From NCBI GenBank assembly GCA_905339345.1, contig CAJPFF010000054.1:1-34183 (forward strand): a stretch of 34,183 nucleotides of DNA, written 5' to 3'. This document shows positions 26,128-34,183 of the stretch, piece by piece. Origin of the DNA: Geobacteraceae bacterium. GTDB taxonomy: Bacteria; Desulfobacterota; Desulfuromonadia; Geobacterales; Geobacteraceae. The stretch's first letter is position 1; the number at the start of each line of letters is the position of its first letter. The translations under genes and the position numbers were made by a program. A model generated the notes under the pieces. It saw only the letters and a program-made list of their open reading frames with translations. It was not told the DNA's origin and ran no database searches.

Positions 26128-26175
26128 GAGCGCCGTTTTCACCGCTGTTTTTCGGACTTTTGTCCCTTTTTGCCC

Positions 26176-27852
26176 ATGAGTCTCGTCGGGAGCCTAGAAG
26201 ACCTGGGACTGGGTGAGATCCTTCAGATCCTCAGCCTCTCATGCAAGTCGGGGATCCTGCGGCTTCACAGCAGGGGACGGGAGGGAACGATTGTCTTCCG
26301 CCTCGGCCAGGTGATCCAGGCCGCCTCCAGCACCCTCCAGGAGAATATCGGCGAGGTCCTGATCCGCAAGGGAAAGCTCGATCTCGGGACCCTGCGGGCC
26401 GCGCTGGCACAGCAGGAACGTGAAGGATACCAGGAACGGCTCGGCTCGATCCTGGTGCGAAGCTTCGGTTTTCCTCTCTCGGCCATCGACGAGGTGGCGC
26501 GGGAGCAGGTGGAGCGGGTGGTCTACACGCTCTTCGCCTGGGCCGAAGGGACCTTCGAGTTCGAACTTCAGGACAATGTCGCCCCGGCCGGCACCATCAG
26601 GATGGATCCCCTCCAGTTCATGCTGGACCAGGGGCTTAATCCCCAGTTTCTGGCACTGGAAGGGGCCAGGGTCGTAGAGAAGGAGCAAAGGGCAGAGTCC
26701 CTTCGCGAGGTTGTGCCTCCCGTTGAGTTCTCCGAGGAACTCCTGAATGCGGCCTTCCAGCCCGTCCCTGTTCCTGATGTCCCGTCACCGACGGCGGCGG
26801 AGCGTGGCACCCTGATCCTCGTGGATGACGACGGAGCTACCCGCGATGCCCTGGGGGTGCTGCTCGAGCGCAATGGTTACCAGGTCATCTCCCTCTCCCG
26901 GAGCGAGGAGGCATTCATCCAGATCGACTCCCTCTATCGGCGCGGCGAGCGACCCAGTGTTCTGGTGGACCTGATCATGCCGCGGATGGACGGATCGGGG
27001 ATTCTCGGCGGGCTTGAGCTTCTGGAGCTTGTCTGGAACACCTTTCCCGATCTGCGGGTTCTGGTCATGTCGGACCACTACAATGGCGATGCCGTGCGGC
27101 GGGTGGGGGAGTTGGGCTATTCCCACATTCTCAAACCGCGCCGGGCGCAGATCAGTGACCCCGTAACCATGGAGGATTTTGCTCCCTCGTTCCTGGCCGC
27201 CTTGGCGCGACTGGCGAGCGGTGCGGGGAGTTCAGCCCCGTCAGGGCTTATCAATCTGGGAGACGAGCTCCGTCTCGAGATGGGAGAGGAGTTCACGGGA
27301 ACCGCCGAGGGGGGGAGCGACCCGGGCAGCGGTATGACCCTTTTGCGGGGGATGCTCGAGGAACTCCACGATCCGGCCCTCGGTGGTGGTATTACGCTGC
27401 TGGTCCTGCGCTTTGCCGCGGAGTTCATGGAGCGTGCTGTCATCTTCATGGTGACGGGGGGAGAGGTTGCCGGGCTTGGCCAGTTTGGCCTCGACGACCG
27501 AGGAGACGCCGCCGACCAACGGGTTCGGCTGCTTCGCATCCCCCGAGGGGAACCATCGCTTTTCACTGGGATACTCGAAGCCAGGCATCCGGCGGTGGTG
27601 CGGCCCGAACCCAACGAATGGAACCGGTACCTCTTCGACCGCCTTGGCGGCGGGGTGCCCCACGAGGTTTTTCTCGGACCGATTGTCAGCGAGGGAGAGG
27701 TGGTCGCCATCCTTTACGGTGACAACCATTCCGATAGAAAACCGATTGCCGGGACGGAGGCACTTGAGATCTTTCTGTCCCAGGCGGGTAGGGCCATGGA
27801 AATGGCGCTTCTGGAACGCAAACTTATGGACAGCAGTCGGGGTGCAATGTGA
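26176..27852 (+). CDS. DUF4388, response-regulator and GAF-like multidomain protein
   Basis: The 558-residue product has an N-terminal DUF4388 (PATAN-type) domain, starting SLVGSLEDLGLGEILQIL with GREGTIVFRLGQVI. A receiver domain follows at about 211-328, with acidic DDD, phospho-aspartate D265 in VDLIMPRMDG and lysine K320. The C-terminal region (about 365-550) resembles a GAF domain, ending IVSEGEVVAILYGDN. DUF4388 proteins occur in gliding and type IV pilus signalling systems, where they may bind other proteins. It would be a phosphorylation target of the CheA encoded nearby. The start is ATG 26176; a TTG six bases earlier is possible. No clear ribosome-binding site is seen. The stop overlaps the next GTG. 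Confidence 0.78.
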   Translation: MSLVGSLEDLGLGEILQILSLSCKSGILRLHSRGREGTIVFRLGQVIQAASSTLQENIGEVLIRKGKLDLGTLRAALAQQEREGYQERLGSILVRSFGFPLSAIDEVAREQVERVVYTLFAWAEGTFEFELQDNVAPAGTIRMDPLQFMLDQGLNPQFLALEGARVVEKEQRAESLREVVPPVEFSEELLNAAFQPVPVPDVPSPTAAERGTLILVDDDGATRDALGVLLERNGYQVISLSRSEEAFIQIDSLYRRGERPSVLVDLIMPRMDGSGILGGLELLELVWNTFPDLRVLVMSDHYNGDAVRRVGELGYSHILKPRRAQISDPVTMEDFAPSFLAALARLASGAGSSAPSGLINLGDELRLEMGEEFTGTAEGGSDPGSGMTLLRGMLEELHDPALGGGITLLVLRFAAEFMERAVIFMVTGGEVAGLGQFGLDDRGDAADQRVRLLRIPRGEPSLFTGILEARHPAVVRPEPNEWNRYLFDRLGGGVPHEVFLGPIVSEGEVVAILYGDNHSDRKPIAGTEALEIFLSQAGRAMEMALLERKLMDSSRGAM

Positions 27853-28214
27853 AAAAGATCCTCATAGCGGAAGACTCGTCAACCATGCGGTCGCTTCTCG
27901 TGGCGACCATCGAGTGCCTCGGCGGGTATCAGATCGTTGAGGCCGCGAGCGGATTCGAGGCCCTTCGGCTTCTGCCGCGGGAACCGGTTGACCTGATCAT
28001 AACCGATATCAACATGCCCGACATCAACGGGCTGGAGCTTGTGAGTTTTGTGCGCGGGAGTGACAATTATAGGCACATCCCGCTTTTCATCATCTCCACC
28101 GAGGGGAGCGAGCGCGACCGGGAAAAGGGGCTTGCCCTCGGGGCGAACGAGTACCTGGTGAAACCGTTCGATCCGGCTCGGCTGCAGGAGTTGATCGTGA
28201 AGTACACGTCCTGA
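27849..28214 (+). CDS. cheY: CheY-like response regulator
   Basis: The 121-residue single-domain receiver has the acidic pair E8-D9, phospho-acceptor D53 (TDINMPD), T84 in IISTEG and lysine K105 in YLVKPFD, all residues needed for phosphotransfer. It has no output domain, so it would act by protein-protein contact when phosphorylated by CheA. The start is a GTG at 27849 that overlaps the upstream stop (GTGA), so translation is coupled to the DUF4388 gene. cheA follows after nine bases. Another CheY (31879-32250) is encoded in the cluster, with different surface residues. Confidence 0.92.
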   Translation: MKKILIAEDSSTMRSLLVATIECLGGYQIVEAASGFEALRLLPREPVDLIITDINMPDINGLELVSFVRGSDNYRHIPLFIISTEGSERDREKGLALGANEYLVKPFDPARLQELIVKYTS

Positions 28215-28223
28215 GGGTGACCC

Positions 28224-30287
28224 ATGGCAAACTCCCATGATACGTCCGGCAGGGCCGTGGAAGACTTTCTGGCCGAAGCCGAAGAGATTGTCGAACGACT
28301 GAGCACCGATCTGGGGACCCTCAGCGACTGCGCCGACAGCGGCGAGTGCGACCCGGATCTGCTGAACGCCATTTTCCGTGGCGCCCACTCCCTCAAGGGG
28401 CTTGCCGGCATGTTCGGTTTTACCGACATCCAGCAACTCTCCCACAACCTGGAAAACCTTCTCGATTCCCTCCGCCTCGGCAAGATCCCCCTCACTATCG
28501 CAACCATGAACGTCCTCTTCGATGCCATGGAACTCCTCGGTTCCGTGGTGCGGGGGCTCGGCACCGGCGAAACCTTCGCCACTGCCATTGCCGATATGAT
28601 TCAGCGGATCAACGACTGCGCCACCGCCCAGCAGGGGGACGGGGAATCGCCCCTTCAGAAGCTCGGTCTGCCGGACAAGGTTCTCAATTCCCTCACCGAA
28701 TATGAGGAACACCGGCTCGTGGAGAATGTGAAGAAGGGGCGGACGATTTTCTCCATCCACGCCTCCTTCAGTCTCATGTCCTTCGACCAGGACCTGGGTG
28801 AGATCACCGAGGCCCTGAAGAAATCAGGGGAGGTGGTGAGCACCCTCCCCAGCGCCAGCGTTACCCCCGAGTCGATGATCGACTTCGAGATCCTCTATGG
28901 CACCGACCTTGCCTATGACGAGGTTGCCGGTCTCATCGACCGGGAGAATGTCGAGATCACCCGGATCGGTGCGGCTGCCGCCGCTCCCCCTTCTGCCGCG
29001 ACATCCGGTACTGCAACGGCTGTCCCTGCGATATCGCAGGCGGCGGCTCCGGCCGAGGTCCCCGCACCGGCCGGCCAAGCCGACGACATGACCGCCAAGA
29101 GCATGAGCCAAACAGTGCGGGTCGACATCGGCAAGCTGGACGACCTCATGAACATCGTCGGTGAACTGGTCCTTTCCCAGTCCATCATTTCGACGCTGGC
29201 GACACGCATGAGGCTCGAAGGATTCTCATCCCTGGCCATCGAACTGGGCAAGGCGGCCAAGGGGCTCGACCGCAAGCTCACCGAGTTGCAGAAGGGGGTC
29301 ATGGAGATCAGGATGATCCCGGTGGGGCAGCTCTTCGAGAAGATGGCCCGCATCGTCCGGAAGGTTTCCCGGGAACAGGGGAAAAAGGTCGACCTCAAGA
29401 CCTTCGGCGCCGACACGGAGCTGGACAAGCTCATCATCGAGGATATCGCCGATCCCATGGTCCATATCATCCGCAACGCCATCGACCACGGCCTGGAGCC
29501 TACGGAAGAGCGGGTGGCCGCCGGCAAGCCCGAGCGGGGGACCATCAGGCTCTCTTCCTATCAGAAGGGAAACCACGTCGTCATTGAGGTGTCCGACGAC
29601 GGCCGGGGCTTCAATATAGAAAAGGTCAAGAAGAAGGCCCTCGAAAAGGGGCTCATCAAGACCCTTGAGGGGATATCCGACCGGGATGCCCTCGACTTTA
29701 TCTTTCTTCCCGGCTTTTCCACCGCCGACGCGGTGAGCGAGCTGTCGGGCCGCGGCGTCGGTATGGACGTGGTGAAGAACAACATCGCCGCTGTCTCGGG
29801 GATGGTGGACATCGAGAGCACGTTCGGCAAGGGGAGCAAGGTCATCATCACCCTCCCCATAACGCTGGCCATCATCAAGGCGCTGCTGGTTTCCACCGCC
29901 GGGCGTACCTATGCCATCCCGATCACCTCGGTGCTGGAGACGATCATCGTCACCGAAAACGACATCGACACCGTGGAGCGCAAGGAGGTCTACCAGCTCC
30001 GGGAGACGACCCTGCCGCTGGTGCGGCTGGAGCGCTTCTTCGGCATTCCGCGGACCAAGCCTGATTCCGCCGAGTTTTACGTGGTGGTGGTGGGGGTGGC
30101 GGAGAAACGGCTCGGGGTCATTGTCGACGACCTCATGGGGCAGCAGGATATCGTTATCAAGGCATTGGGCGATATGTTCAAGGGGTACCGGGGGATAACC
30201 GGTGCCGCGGATCTGGGGGACCAGCGGACGATCCTCGTGCTTGACGTGGGGGGGATCATCGGCGAGGCATTCCGGAGTGGAGGGTAG
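28224..30287 (+). CDS. cheA: Chemotaxis histidine kinase CheA
   Basis: The 687-residue kinase has an HPt domain with H55 in GAHSLKGL, an undefined globular segment at about 145-245, an Ala/Pro linker (250-285) and a dimerisation domain (295-355). The HATPase domain contains the N box RNAIDHG (N418), DDGRG (458-462) and GRGVGMD (509-515). The C-terminal CheW-like regulatory domain spans about 550-683. It would autophosphorylate H55 under receptor control and pass phosphate to the receivers in this cluster. The segment at 145-245 sits where the CheY-binding P2 domain is in E. coli but does not look like it. There is no fused receiver. The ATG at 28224 follows GAGGG; the stop abuts the next ATG. 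Confidence 0.95.
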   Translation: MANSHDTSGRAVEDFLAEAEEIVERLSTDLGTLSDCADSGECDPDLLNAIFRGAHSLKGLAGMFGFTDIQQLSHNLENLLDSLRLGKIPLTIATMNVLFDAMELLGSVVRGLGTGETFATAIADMIQRINDCATAQQGDGESPLQKLGLPDKVLNSLTEYEEHRLVENVKKGRTIFSIHASFSLMSFDQDLGEITEALKKSGEVVSTLPSASVTPESMIDFEILYGTDLAYDEVAGLIDRENVEITRIGAAAAAPPSAATSGTATAVPAISQAAAPAEVPAPAGQADDMTAKSMSQTVRVDIGKLDDLMNIVGELVLSQSIISTLATRMRLEGFSSLAIELGKAAKGLDRKLTELQKGVMEIRMIPVGQLFEKMARIVRKVSREQGKKVDLKTFGADTELDKLIIEDIADPMVHIIRNAIDHGLEPTEERVAAGKPERGTIRLSSYQKGNHVVIEVSDDGRGFNIEKVKKKALEKGLIKTLEGISDRDALDFIFLPGFSTADAVSELSGRGVGMDVVKNNIAAVSGMVDIESTFGKGSKVIITLPITLAIIKALLVSTAGRTYAIPITSVLETIIVTENDIDTVERKEVYQLRETTLPLVRLERFFGIPRTKPDSAEFYVVVVGVAEKRLGVIVDDLMGQQDIVIKALGDMFKGYRGITGAADLGDQRTILVLDVGGIIGEAFRSGG

Positions 30288-31091
30288 ATGTACCGGGAGT
30301 TCTACGGACTGAACGAAAAGCCGTTCTCAAAGACTCCGGACCCGCGCTACCTCTTTCTGTCGCCGGGGCACCGGGAGGCCCTTGCACGCTTGCAGTACGC
30401 AGTGGAGGAGCGGGAGCTGGCCCTTCTCACCGGCGACATCGGCTGCGGCAAAACCACCATCTCCCGGGCGCTCATGGATGCCGTGGGCAATGAGGGGTGC
30501 TTCTGCTTCATCGTCAATCCGCGCCTCTCGGCCGTTGAGTTTCTCCGCACCGTGGCCCGCAGCCTCGGGATTGCCGAGCCGGGCGGAGCCAAGGACGAGC
30601 TGCTGCGGCAGCTCACCGAGGCGGTCTACCGGCTCGAGGGGGAGAAGCGCTGCCCGGTCATCGTCATTGACGAAGCACAGCTGATCCCCGACCAGGAGGT
30701 GTTCGACGAGATCAGGCTCCTGACCAATTTCCAGCTGGACGACCGCAACCTCATGAGCGTCATCCTCATGGGGCAGCCGGAGTTGCGGCAGATCCTGGCC
30801 GATCCGGCCCATGAAGCCCTGCGCCAGCGGATCGCCATGCATTATCACCTCCAGCCCCTGACCCTTGAGGAAACCCTTGAATACATTGATTTTCGGGTGG
30901 AGGTGGCCGGCGGACCCCAGGGACTCTTCTCTCCTGATGCCATCCGGCGCATTTTCGAACTGTCGGGCGGTGTGCCGCGCAAGATCAATATCCTTGCCAC
31001 CAACGCGCTGCTGGTGGGGTTCGGGAAGGACGCCTCCTGGATCGACGCGTCGCTGGTGGAAGAACTGCGGGACGAAGCGAGCCTCTACTGA
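30288..31091 (+). CDS. ExeA/GspA-type AAA ATPase
   Basis: The 267-residue protein begins MYREFYGLNEKPFSKTPDPR, the N-terminal hallmark of ExeA-like ATPases, with LSPGHREAL-RLQYAV. It has Walker A GDIGCGKT (49-56), Walker B VIVIDEAQ and sensor LSGGVPRKIN. In Aeromonas, ExeA with ExeB helps assemble the type II secretion secretin through peptidoglycan. This one ends soon after the ATPase core and lacks a membrane helix or peptidoglycan-binding domain, so it is a cytosolic ATPase. It begins immediately after the cheA stop (TAGATG), within the chemosensory operon, which is an unusual place. Its role there is unknown. Confidence 0.85.
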   Translation: MYREFYGLNEKPFSKTPDPRYLFLSPGHREALARLQYAVEERELALLTGDIGCGKTTISRALMDAVGNEGCFCFIVNPRLSAVEFLRTVARSLGIAEPGGAKDELLRQLTEAVYRLEGEKRCPVIVIDEAQLIPDQEVFDEIRLLTNFQLDDRNLMSVILMGQPELRQILADPAHEALRQRIAMHYHLQPLTLEETLEYIDFRVEVAGGPQGLFSPDAIRRIFELSGGVPRKINILATNALLVGFGKDASWIDASLVEELRDEASLY

Positions 31092-31109: not shown

Positions 31110-31835
31110 ATGATGGATATTGCCGAGATCAGGAAAAAGGCCCAGCGGGAGCGGGAAGGGCGCCGCGAAGAGCCACGGGCGGCACAGCCCCTTCCCGATT
31201 CCCCCTCCATGGAGCCGGAGGAGAACGATAACAGTCTCTACGACGAGTTCTTCCCCCGGCACGAGATGGTTTCATCCCCCCACCTCCCCGCGGCGCCGCG
31301 TGTGGTCCGCGACCCTCTGTCCGTCATTCTTGAAGGACGGAAGGCGGCTTTGGTTGATGAGGTCCTCCCTGTCGAGACCGATGCCGAAGTCTCCCTTGAA
31401 ACCGAAGCCGCCCTTGAGATTCTCTGCTTCCGGGTCGCCGATGAGATTTACGGCATCGACATCATGGAGCTGAAGGAAATCATCAAGCCCCGGGAGACGA
31501 CGGAGGTTCCCCATGCGCCCCCCTTCGTGGCCGGAGTTCTGTCGCTGCGCGGGATCATCATCCCCGTTTTTCTCCTCCGCGAGCGCCTTGGTCTTTGCAG
31601 GGAAGGGGGGGGAGGGAAAGAGCGCATCATCGTCGTGAAGAAGGGAGAGGGGCTCTGTGGTATCCTTGTGGACGAGGTGACCCAGGTGGTACGGATCGCC
31701 GCCGACACCGTGGAGCATCCGCCCGCGGTTCTCGATGGCATAGATCGTGAATTTGTTGCGGGTATCGGGCGGCACGACGGAAAGATCGTCATTCTGCTTA
31801 CGATGGAGAAGGTTCTCGACGTTGCGCTGTTCTGA
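31110..31835 (+). CDS. cheW: CheW-like coupling protein with long N-terminal extension
   Basis: The C-terminal 140 residues (from about 102, EILCFRVADEIYGID) form a CheW domain with MELKEIIKPRE, GVLSLRGIIIPV and GILVDEV. CheW links receptors to CheA in signalling arrays. The first 100 residues are charged and Pro-rich (REREGRREEPRAAQP) and contain YDEFF, with no recognised domain, so an added docking tail is likely. The start is the ATGATG at 31110-31115; AAAGGA lies about ten bases upstream. A second CheW (32297) lacks this extension. The gene lies 18 bases after the ATPase gene. Confidence 0.88.
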   Translation: MMDIAEIRKKAQREREGRREEPRAAQPLPDSPSMEPEENDNSLYDEFFPRHEMVSSPHLPAAPRVVRDPLSVILEGRKAALVDEVLPVETDAEVSLETEAALEILCFRVADEIYGIDIMELKEIIKPRETTEVPHAPPFVAGVLSLRGIIIPVFLLRERLGLCREGGGGKERIIVVKKGEGLCGILVDEVTQVVRIAADTVEHPPAVLDGIDREFVAGIGRHDGKIVILLTMEKVLDVALF

Positions 31836-31878
31836 GGTAGTCTCCGCTGAAGACACCATTTGTGAAAGGTTCCAGGCC

Positions 31879-32250
31879 ATGACGAAGAAAAAGATCCTGA
31901 TTGTGGAGGACGAGGAGAGCCTGCTCAAGCTGGAGAGTATTCTCCTTACATCCAGGGGGTATGACGTTACTGGCGTTGCCGACGGTGCGACTGCCCTCGA
32001 GCAGGTTGTCTCGGCCAGGCCCGATCTTGTTATTCTCGATATCATGCTTCCGGGCATGGATGGCTTTGAGGTCTGTCGACGCATCAAACAGAATCCCGAA
32101 ACGGCCCATATCCCGGTCATGATGCTGACAGCCAAGAAAAGTGCCCAGGACACGGAACGGGGGATGGCAGCCGGCGCGTCGGCTTACGTGACAAAGCCGT
32201 TCAAGTCGGCAAAGATTATCGAGATCATCCAGGAACTCCTCTCCCCGTGA
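31879..32250 (+). CDS. CheY-like response regulator
   Basis: The 123-residue receiver has E10-D11, phospho-acceptor D54 in LDIMLPGMDG, T84 in MLTAKK and K106 in TKPF, so it is complete for phosphorylation. It has no output domain. The frame is open back to 31747 in the end of cheW, but the ATG at 31879 gives the standard N-terminus TKKKILIVEDE with AAAGG at 31865-31869. It lies between two CheW genes. LDIMLPGMDGFEV is closer to OmpR-type receivers than to E. coli CheY, so it may be a sink or a regulator of another process. Confidence 0.92.
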   Translation: MTKKKILIVEDEESLLKLESILLTSRGYDVTGVADGATALEQVVSARPDLVILDIMLPGMDGFEVCRRIKQNPETAHIPVMMLTAKKSAQDTERGMAAGASAYVTKPFKSAKIIEIIQELLSP

Positions 32251-32296: not shown

Positions 32297-32794
32297 ATGA
32301 TGGTGGAAACCGACATTCAGGAAATACAGCTTGCCTGTTTCCGTCTGGGCGATGCAACCTTCGCCGCGGACATCATGAGGATCAAGGAGATAATCAAGCC
32401 CCAGCGGCTGACCAGGCTCCCCAAGACCCCTGCCTTCGTGGAAGGGGTCATCAACCTCCGCGGTTCGGTTATTCCGGTGATCGACCTGCGCATGCGGTTC
32501 GACCTCCCGGACCGTGCTCCGCTGGAGGAGTCCCGGCTCCTGGTGGTGGCCGTGGCGCGCCAGCTCGTGGGACTCGTGGTGGACGACGTGACCGAGGTTG
32601 TCACGGTCCATGCCCATGACATCAAGCCTCCCCCCCACGTGGCCGAGGGGATAAGCACCGAGTACCTGATTGGCGTCTGCCTCGTCCGCGACAGCCTCAT
32701 CATGCTTCTCAATCTCGACACTATTCTGACCAGCCGCGAGACATCGACGCTCGCAGGCTTCTCCCGGGTGACGGGCGCCGCTCCGGCCCGGTAA
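32297..32794 (+). CDS. cheW: CheW-like coupling protein
   Basis: The 165-residue protein is almost entirely a CheW domain: LACFRLGDATFAADI, MRIKEIIKPQR, GVINLRGSVIPVIDLR, LVGLVVDDVTEV and EYLIGV. It would couple chemoreceptors to CheA. It shares the KEIIKP and LRG motifs with the longer CheW at 31110-31835 but differs widely elsewhere, so the two are old paralogues. The start is an ATGATG preceded by AGGGGG, which may serve as the ribosome-binding site. The 46-base gap before it shows no feature. Confidence 0.92.
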   Translation: MMVETDIQEIQLACFRLGDATFAADIMRIKEIIKPQRLTRLPKTPAFVEGVINLRGSVIPVIDLRMRFDLPDRAPLEESRLLVVAVARQLVGLVVDDVTEVVTVHAHDIKPPPHVAEGISTEYLIGVCLVRDSLIMLLNLDTILTSRETSTLAGFSRVTGAAPAR

Positions 32795-32881
32795 CGCCGT
32801 GGGAGGATTCACCTCTCGTGCCCCGGCCCGTGTCGAATGACATGTCGGGAGCTTAACCCCTGCATTGCAAGGAGACCGTCC

Positions 32882-34183
32882 GTGGACGATCTTGAAACCA
32901 TAGGAAAACAACTGAATGCCCCTGACGAGGAAGAGCGCCGCCTGGCGGTGATCGGCCTTGCCCGCCACCCCCTCGGGAAAACCCGTGAACTCTTCTTTAC
33001 CGCCATGGGGGACGGGAGTTGGCGGGTGCGCAAGGAGGCGGTAAACACACTCCTCTCCATCTCGCTGGATGACGCTTCGGTGGACGGGCTCATCGGGCTC
33101 CTTGCCTCCTCCGAGAACGCGGGACTCCGCAACTCGGCGGTGGAGGCCCTGGAGCGCCTGGAGTCCCGGGGGGTGCCGCTCCTCCTTGGGCGTCTCAGGG
33201 ACCCGGACCAGGACGTGCGCAAGTTCGTGGCGGACATCCTCGGCAACATCGGCGACCGCTCAGCCATTCCGGCCCTCGTGGAAGCACTGCGGGACCCCGA
33301 CGCCAATGTCTCCGCCGCGGCTGCCGAGAACCTCGGCAAGATCGGCGATCCCCGGGCGGTCGCGGCCCTGGTTGAGGCTTTGGGAACGGGCGACGTCTGG
33401 TTCCGTTATTCGGTTCTCGGTGCCTTGACCCGGATCGGCGAGCCGGTTCCCTTTGCGGTCTTTGCTCCCCTTGTGTCCGATGTTCTCCTGAAGCGTCCCG
33501 TATTCGAATGCCTGGGCGCGGTGGGAGACCGCGATGCGGTGGCGGTGCTTATGCAGGGAGTCCAGGACCGGGTCCGGGCTGTCCGGGAAGCAGCGGCCTG
33601 TGCCCTGGTGCGTCTCCGGGGGAGGCTCCCCGCCGTGTACGCCCGGGAGGTGGACGATCTGCTGACGGGGCTCAGGGGGAAGCCGTGCGTGGAGGAACTC
33701 ATCGCTTCCCTCGATACCACGGAGCGACCGGTGAGGGAGGCCATCGTGGGGCTCCTTGCCCTGATCGGCGACGAGCGCGCGGCCCTGCCGCTCCTGGAGG
33801 GGTGTCGCGACGAGAGGCTGCGGCGCCTCTGTCTCCAGGGGGTCCGGTCCATGGGCGAAGGGGGAATGACTGTACTTCTCGCGGCCTTCTCCGACGCTGA
33901 CGATGAGGAAAAAACCTTTATCATACACCTTTGGGGTGAGATGGGTTTTGGCGGGGCGGCGCCATACCTTGGCGCGGCCATGGCGAGCAGCCGTTACACA
34001 GTTCGCCGTGCCGCAGTGGTGGCAGCCGGCAAGATCGGCCTGACCGGGCTTCTGGATCAGATCGGCGCGCTGCTCGACGACAGCGACCCTGACGTACGCG
34101 AGGGGGCCGTCGATGCCCTCGTGCGACTTGCCCCCACCGGCCGTGAGAAGGTGGCTGCCGTTGCGCGGATGCTCGCCGCCTCG
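32882..34183 (+). CDS. HEAT-repeat protein, 3' end beyond window
   Basis: The frame is open from the GTG at 32882 to the window edge (434 codons, no stop). AAGGAG (32869-32874) precedes the GTG at seven bases. The translation is built of about 30-residue helical repeats with the HEAT pattern DPD-x2-VR-x3-A-x2-LG-IGD, for example near residues 106-125 and 137-156, and again at the visible end. Such scaffolds bind other proteins. The first repeats are weaker than the later ones. It follows the second CheW after 87 bases with no terminator, so it is probably part of the chemosensory operon. The C-terminus and any extra domain are not visible. A link to CheA, receptors or methylation enzymes is inferred only from position. 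Confidence 0.85.
   Translation, partial: MDDLETIGKQLNAPDEEERRLAVIGLARHPLGKTRELFFTAMGDGSWRVRKEAVNTLLSISLDDASVDGLIGLLASSENAGLRNSAVEALERLESRGVPLLLGRLRDPDQDVRKFVADILGNIGDRSAIPALVEALRDPDANVSAAAAENLGKIGDPRAVAALVEALGTGDVWFRYSVLGALTRIGEPVPFAVFAPLVSDVLLKRPVFECLGAVGDRDAVAVLMQGVQDRVRAVREAAACALVRLRGRLPAVYAREVDDLLTGLRGKPCVEELIASLDTTERPVREAIVGLLALIGDERAALPLLEGCRDERLRRLCLQGVRSMGEGGMTVLLAAFSDADDEEKTFIIHLWGEMGFGGAAPYLGAAMASSRYTVRRAAVVAAGKIGLTGLLDQIGALLDDSDPDVREGAVDALVRLAPTGREKVAAVARMLAAS

Follow-up and report, generated by a model that had tools for sequence, protein, structure and literature searches.

ATPases that serve a chemosensory array by positioning it are already known from Vibrio (ParC, with its partner ParP) and from Rhodobacter (PpfA), and both ParC and PpfA are ParA/MinD ATPases. 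In ParP, the N-terminus binds ParC and is joined by a long, proline-rich linker to a CheW-like domain (PMC5706961), and partners of ParA/MinD ATPases bind through positively charged, disordered N-termini (PMC10241942). In transposition, TnsB attaches to TnsC through a hook of 15 residues at a disordered, flexible linker whose length is not conserved (PMC9371665). A chemosensory system of direct relevance here is the electrode sensing network of G. sulfurreducens. Tn-Seq during electrode growth gave scores of -2.4 for GSU2220 (esnB, CheW), -2.1 for GSU2221 ("ATPase", listed as needed for electrode growth) and -2.8 for GSU2222 (esnC, CheA) (Chan et al. 2017, PMC5585712). The deletions made in that study were those of esnA, B, C and D, not of GSU2221, which is neither named nor discussed there as an Esn component, and the CheW motif described below does not appear in it either (PMC5585712). 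An esnB insertion raises a cGAMP reporter as well (PMC8835794). Within the open-licence literature, no mention of GSU2221 was found outside PMC5585712.

The window, i.e. the whole stretch of 34,183 nucleotides analysed here, holds a che cluster (Table 1) whose cheA-ATPase-cheW order matches GSU2222-2221-2220 of the esn cluster. Gene order within the cluster as found across the order, with the locus tags taken from PMC5585712, identifies the window ATPase with GSU2221. Judged by its content, with neither an mcp nor an HD gene seen, the cluster probably corresponds to the beta group described by Tran et al. 2008, the text of which does not mention the ATPase (PMC2577667). The genome assembly that contains the window is 70.7% complete and comprises 290 contigs; its gene content and the che cluster shared across the family would fit relatives of Geobacter.

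Table 1. Features of the che cluster in the window, with the basis of each assignment.
Feature	Coordinates	Strand	Basis or remark
ExeA-type AAA ATPase, soluble, 267 aa	30288..31091	+	by gene order orthologue of G. sulfurreducens GSU2221
CheWa (esnB-like, GSU2220 position)	31110..31835	+	CheW domain at the C-terminus, behind a basic N-terminal motif and a variable acidic/Pro-rich linker
Putative docking motif for the ATPase, MDIAEIRKKAQ, at the N-terminus of CheWa	31113..31145	+	conservation and co-loss
CheA (esnC-like, GSU2222 position)	28224..30287	+	Hpt, dimerisation, HATPase and CheW-like domains
CheY-type receiver, cheY1 of the cluster	27849..28214	+	domain match, cluster order
DUF4388 (PATAN)-receiver protein, a conserved member of the cluster	26170..27852	+	domain match, cluster order
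CheY-type receiver, cheY2 of the cluster	31873..32250	+	domain match, cluster order
CheWb, the second CheW, lacking the N-terminal motif	32297..32794	+	domain match, cluster order
HEAT-repeat protein, cut by the window end	32837..34183	+	cheR and cheB come next in relatives

The ATPase reading frame is real and its ExeA-type assignment is confirmed; because the cheA-ATPase-cheW arrangement is kept across the class and beyond, it is not due to chance. The close packing reported in the earlier note is exact: the frame starts at the base right after the cheA stop (TAGATG, a gap of 0 bp), and the cheW ATG follows 18 bp past the ATPase stop. The protein matches Pfam AAA_22 above cutoff (E 5.9e-23) and scores below cutoff with NCBIfam TIGR03015, the XrtA/PEP-CTERM ATPase (235.5 bits vs 324.5). 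Both the Walker A (GDIGCGKT) and the Walker B (VIVIDEAQ) sequences are intact, and the N-terminal pattern MYxxFYGLxxxPFxxxPDPxFL is present as in the AAA_22-type domain of ExeA/GspA. The ATPase domain is common to this protein and to ExeA/GspA, including the XrtA/PEP-CTERM ATPase. Unlike these, the che ATPase has no transmembrane or C-terminal part and forms a clade with signature residues of its own. The same note had described the protein as lacking the membrane and peptidoglycan-binding parts of ExeA, and this is borne out: no transmembrane segment was detected (maximum 19-residue hydropathy 1.09), 267 residues leave no space for a peptidoglycan-binding part, and none is present in any orthologue (266-283 aa).

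When placed in a tree with 24 ExeA-type paralogues, most of them from the same genomes, the che ATPases formed one clade with support of 99/96. They are about 33-44% identical to these paralogues, some of which carry membrane anchors. The clade is marked by R34, D64, Q149, N154 and A237, and the paralogue hallmark S-N-x-E-T-x-x-x-K reads T-N-F-Q-L-D-D-x-N in it (E149Q, K154N). AlphaFold predicted the ATPase with block averages mostly above 94 pLDDT, and Foldseek placed MuB, archaeal Cdc6/Orc and TnsC as the nearest solved folds (MuB: E 1.3e-10, TMt 0.75, an AAA+ initiator-type fold). MuB and TnsC are only 15-19% identical to it in sequence, though, and have a transposase partner; the che ATPase is acidic and has none, as its neighbourhood consists of che genes only. 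Profile and fold searches gave AAA family matches only and no ParA/MinD-type domain; the protein belongs to another fold class than ParC and PpfA. Since it falls neither among the ParA/MinD ATPases nor among the transposition regulators, membership of either group is not claimed.

Absence from the same cluster in close relatives had been named beforehand as the finding that would count against a link to the che genes. An orthologue at 62% identity or more was found in 52 of the 58 genomes of the order (own genome included), with a clear gap down to the paralogues of the same search, which reached 44% at most. A survey of the class (277 genomes; E up to 1e-125 for CheA and up to 1e-62 for the ATPase) gave, by hand tally, CheA in 204 genomes, the ATPase in 200 and both in 195. 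Among the five genomes with the ATPase only, three (L114, L119, L120) have it at a contig edge with a cheA fragment and one (G106) is merely a paralogue match; the fifth is G061. The ATPase lies directly behind cheA in all 72 ATPase-positive loci read, and the cheA-ATPase-cheWa order is fixed in them, CheWa being beyond the contig end in one (L118). With small variations, the layout of the 72 loci is era-der-PATAN-cheY-cheA-ATPase-cheWa-(cheY)-cheWb-(zinc ribbon receiver)-HEAT-cheR-cheB-(GAF, cheY)-(multihaem cytochrome)-leuS. Outside the class, the cheA-ATPase-cheW core occurs in four more families of the phylum (sample of 395 genomes) at 51-57% identity. The order is kept even in L128, from another lineage of the phylum, though its CheA is just 28% identical. 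In plasmid records, ExeA-type matches were below 60% identity only.

CheWa consists of a CheW domain behind an A-, E- and P-rich N-terminal region of 65-181 residues (median 112), and the extension in the window measures about 100 residues. At its start stands the short, basic motif MDIAEIRKKA, preceded by one more Met; nearly all CheWa orthologues share the consensus M[NDE][LI]A[EDK]IRxKA. The motif was conserved at 84% on average, the linker at 27% and the CheW core at 63%, with the invariance of R and K in these figures partly built in because the pattern used for fetching required both residues. The tally on the main ATPase-positive and ATPase-less loci was made without that pattern. The motif was present in all 71 ATPase-positive loci with a readable CheWa start. 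Its codons vary synonymously between genomes, and the strict pattern gave at most one exact match per genome tested, always at CheWa. In L125 it reads MDLARARERAK, R replacing K, and in L128 it reads MAKIGEIRKKK despite a far-diverged CheW domain. The motif is new here and is not part of the published esn work. One locus (L105:8800-9200) shows a frameshift between motif and CheW domain, which may be an assembly error.

Nine clusters contain CheA and no ATPase: four from one genus (L090-L093), two each from a second (L110-L111) and a third (L112-L113), and L089. In the first eight, the motif is absent from all frames between cheA and the CheW domain. The ninth, L089, has a decayed motif (MNLAETRKKA, I to T) and, right after cheA, the scar FHGLREKPF, a remnant of the ATPase N-terminus, which marks the ATPase loss in L089 as recent. 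In the third genus, L112 and L113 keep HEAT, both CheY, CheR, CheB and a nearly unchanged CheA, so that ATPase and motif are the sole cluster losses, and their sister genome L114 has both. At the genome level, Fisher's test on an earlier count (69/0 vs 1/7) gave p ~3e-9; as genomes are not independent, the number of events is the fairer measure, and it stands at four independent ATPase losses, with the motif gone in three and the fourth (L089) fresh. CheA was kept after the ATPase loss in all four lineages, and therefore the array can do without the ATPase.

Synteny and the coupling to the CheW motif thus lend strong support to the earlier suggestion that the ATPase is made together with the signalling core, and we are highly confident that this Che system uses it as a working part. 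It would be an accessory of a single chemosensory system, namely that of the che cluster which in G. sulfurreducens forms the electrode sensing network (esnB, GSU2221, esnC). From conservation and joint loss, we infer that the ATPase probably docks on the CheWa motif: a basic peptide of about 10 residues on a long, flexible linker would recruit it to the CheA/CheW array. In architecture CheWa resembles ParP, with an N-terminal motif as the putative ATPase-binding part and a long linker, and the motif is lost together with the ATPase; ParP is a CheW-like domain protein, whereas here the proposed partner is a CheW with a tag. TnsB, with its short hook on a flexible linker, offers a design of the same kind. 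The ATPase has a pI of 4.9 and its orthologues are acidic throughout (pI 4.6-6.2), which fits a basic peptide; several paralogues are acidic too, however, and charge is therefore weak evidence for docking. In an AlphaFold model of the ATPase continued across its natural TGA stop into CheWa(1-45), the motif is a helix of about 75 pLDDT, no higher than in CheWa alone.

Once recruited, the ATPase would self-assemble in an ATP-dependent manner, with hydrolysis probably triggered by the CheWa peptide, and would thereby build, place or turn over the array. If it is indeed a working part that docks on CheWa, the chance that its job is array assembly or placement appears even or a little better. Taken as a whole, the account of a dedicated accessory that is recruited via the CheWa peptide and builds, places or turns over the array is slightly more likely than not to be right, and it is only by analogy with the described systems that we prefer assembly or placement to the two alternatives that come nearest.

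The first of these is that the ATPase, bound to the CheWa peptide, would act as a nucleotide-dependent switch that alters CheA activity or CheW availability by its ATP/ADP state, and would neither place nor build arrays. The recruitment evidence (motif, conservation and co-loss) fits it equally, and MuB/TnsC/Cdc6-type ATPases, to which the fold is matched, act as ATP switches (PMC9371665); it predicts no effects on localisation, and we regard it as possible but rather improbable. The second is the remodelling idea of the earlier note, in which the ATPase, like an unfoldase, would thread or strip CheW by its N-terminal tag and so remodel or dismantle arrays. AAA+ proteins commonly use a terminal tag on a flexible linker as their handle, and the CheWa motif would be one. 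However, the nearest folds are the scaffolding ATPases MuB, Orc and TnsC rather than Clp/FtsH unfoldases, and the motif residues are specifically conserved and not merely unstructured, which makes this mode of action unlikely.

The earlier note had also considered a coupling of the array to a secretion or pilus machine. In this reading the ATPase would connect the array with a machine for secretion, type IV pili or peptidoglycan, as ExeA does for type II secretion. The resemblance to the ExeA family and the membrane-anchored paralogues in the same genomes speak for such a link. Against it, no secretion or pilus gene was found in the conserved che neighbourhood, the orthologues form a separate clade, and none of them has a membrane or peptidoglycan-binding part; this part of the earlier proposal therefore finds no backing, and we consider it quite unlikely. 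That the ATPase is an operon passenger of unrelated function would agree with its being dispensable in four lineages and with nothing else, and is highly improbable in view of its class-wide retention at one position, its joint loss with the CheW motif and the shared Tn-Seq phenotype. DNA or nucleoid binding as for MuB is not the preferred reading, given that the orthologues are acidic throughout.

Two points count against the account preferred here: the array can do without the ATPase, and a polar effect on the downstream esnB may explain the Tn-Seq phenotype published for GSU2221. The present analysis suggests an overlooked component in a pathway whose necessity for electrode growth has been demonstrated, and the CheW handle of about 10 residues makes the role of the ATPase testable. 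In the open-licence literature, no chemosensory array with an ExeA-type ATPase was found. The expectation that an ATPase would be new for a chemosensory system accordingly holds for this kind of ATPase and not for ATPases serving arrays in general, as ParC and PpfA are known. We give an even chance to the reading that an AAA+ (MuB/Cdc6-type) rather than ParA/MinD array-organising ATPase, binding a CheW peptide, represents a previously undescribed class and a part of Geobacter electrode sensing that has gone unrecognised. If so, chemosensory arrays would have acquired array-organising ATPases on two or more occasions, from families unrelated to each other but with a partner of the same design, namely an ATPase-binding N-terminus, a long linker and a CheW-like domain. 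For metal-breathing Geobacter-type bacteria, a dedicated ATPase that is kept in the electrode-sensing cluster across the whole class and that probably grips the CheW tag suggests an unstudied route of array building or placing.

Several further features of the cluster were recorded. The DUF4388 (PATAN)-receiver protein (26170-27852) stands upstream of cheY-cheA in nearly all clusters. In L128, genes for a chemoreceptor-like and a HEAT-like protein and then cheB come behind the very diverged cheY-cheA-ATPase-cheW cluster. Many relatives have a multihaem cytochrome (Cytochrome_C7 repeats) between cheB and leuS, for example at L038:14740-16890 and L045:17013-19196. Of the four lineages without the ATPase, three also lack the HEAT-repeat protein; an obligate partnership of the two was rejected, as L112 and L113 keep HEAT without the ATPase. 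A search for CheA residues lost together with the ATPase was likewise negative, L112 and L113 differing at just two near-invariant positions (Y162F and I309V, L037 CheA numbering). Finally, a second helix is predicted in the CheWa linker at residues 69-79 (window 31314-31346), around DPLSVILEGR; a similar stretch is kept in several ATPase-less clusters and is a possible other binding site.
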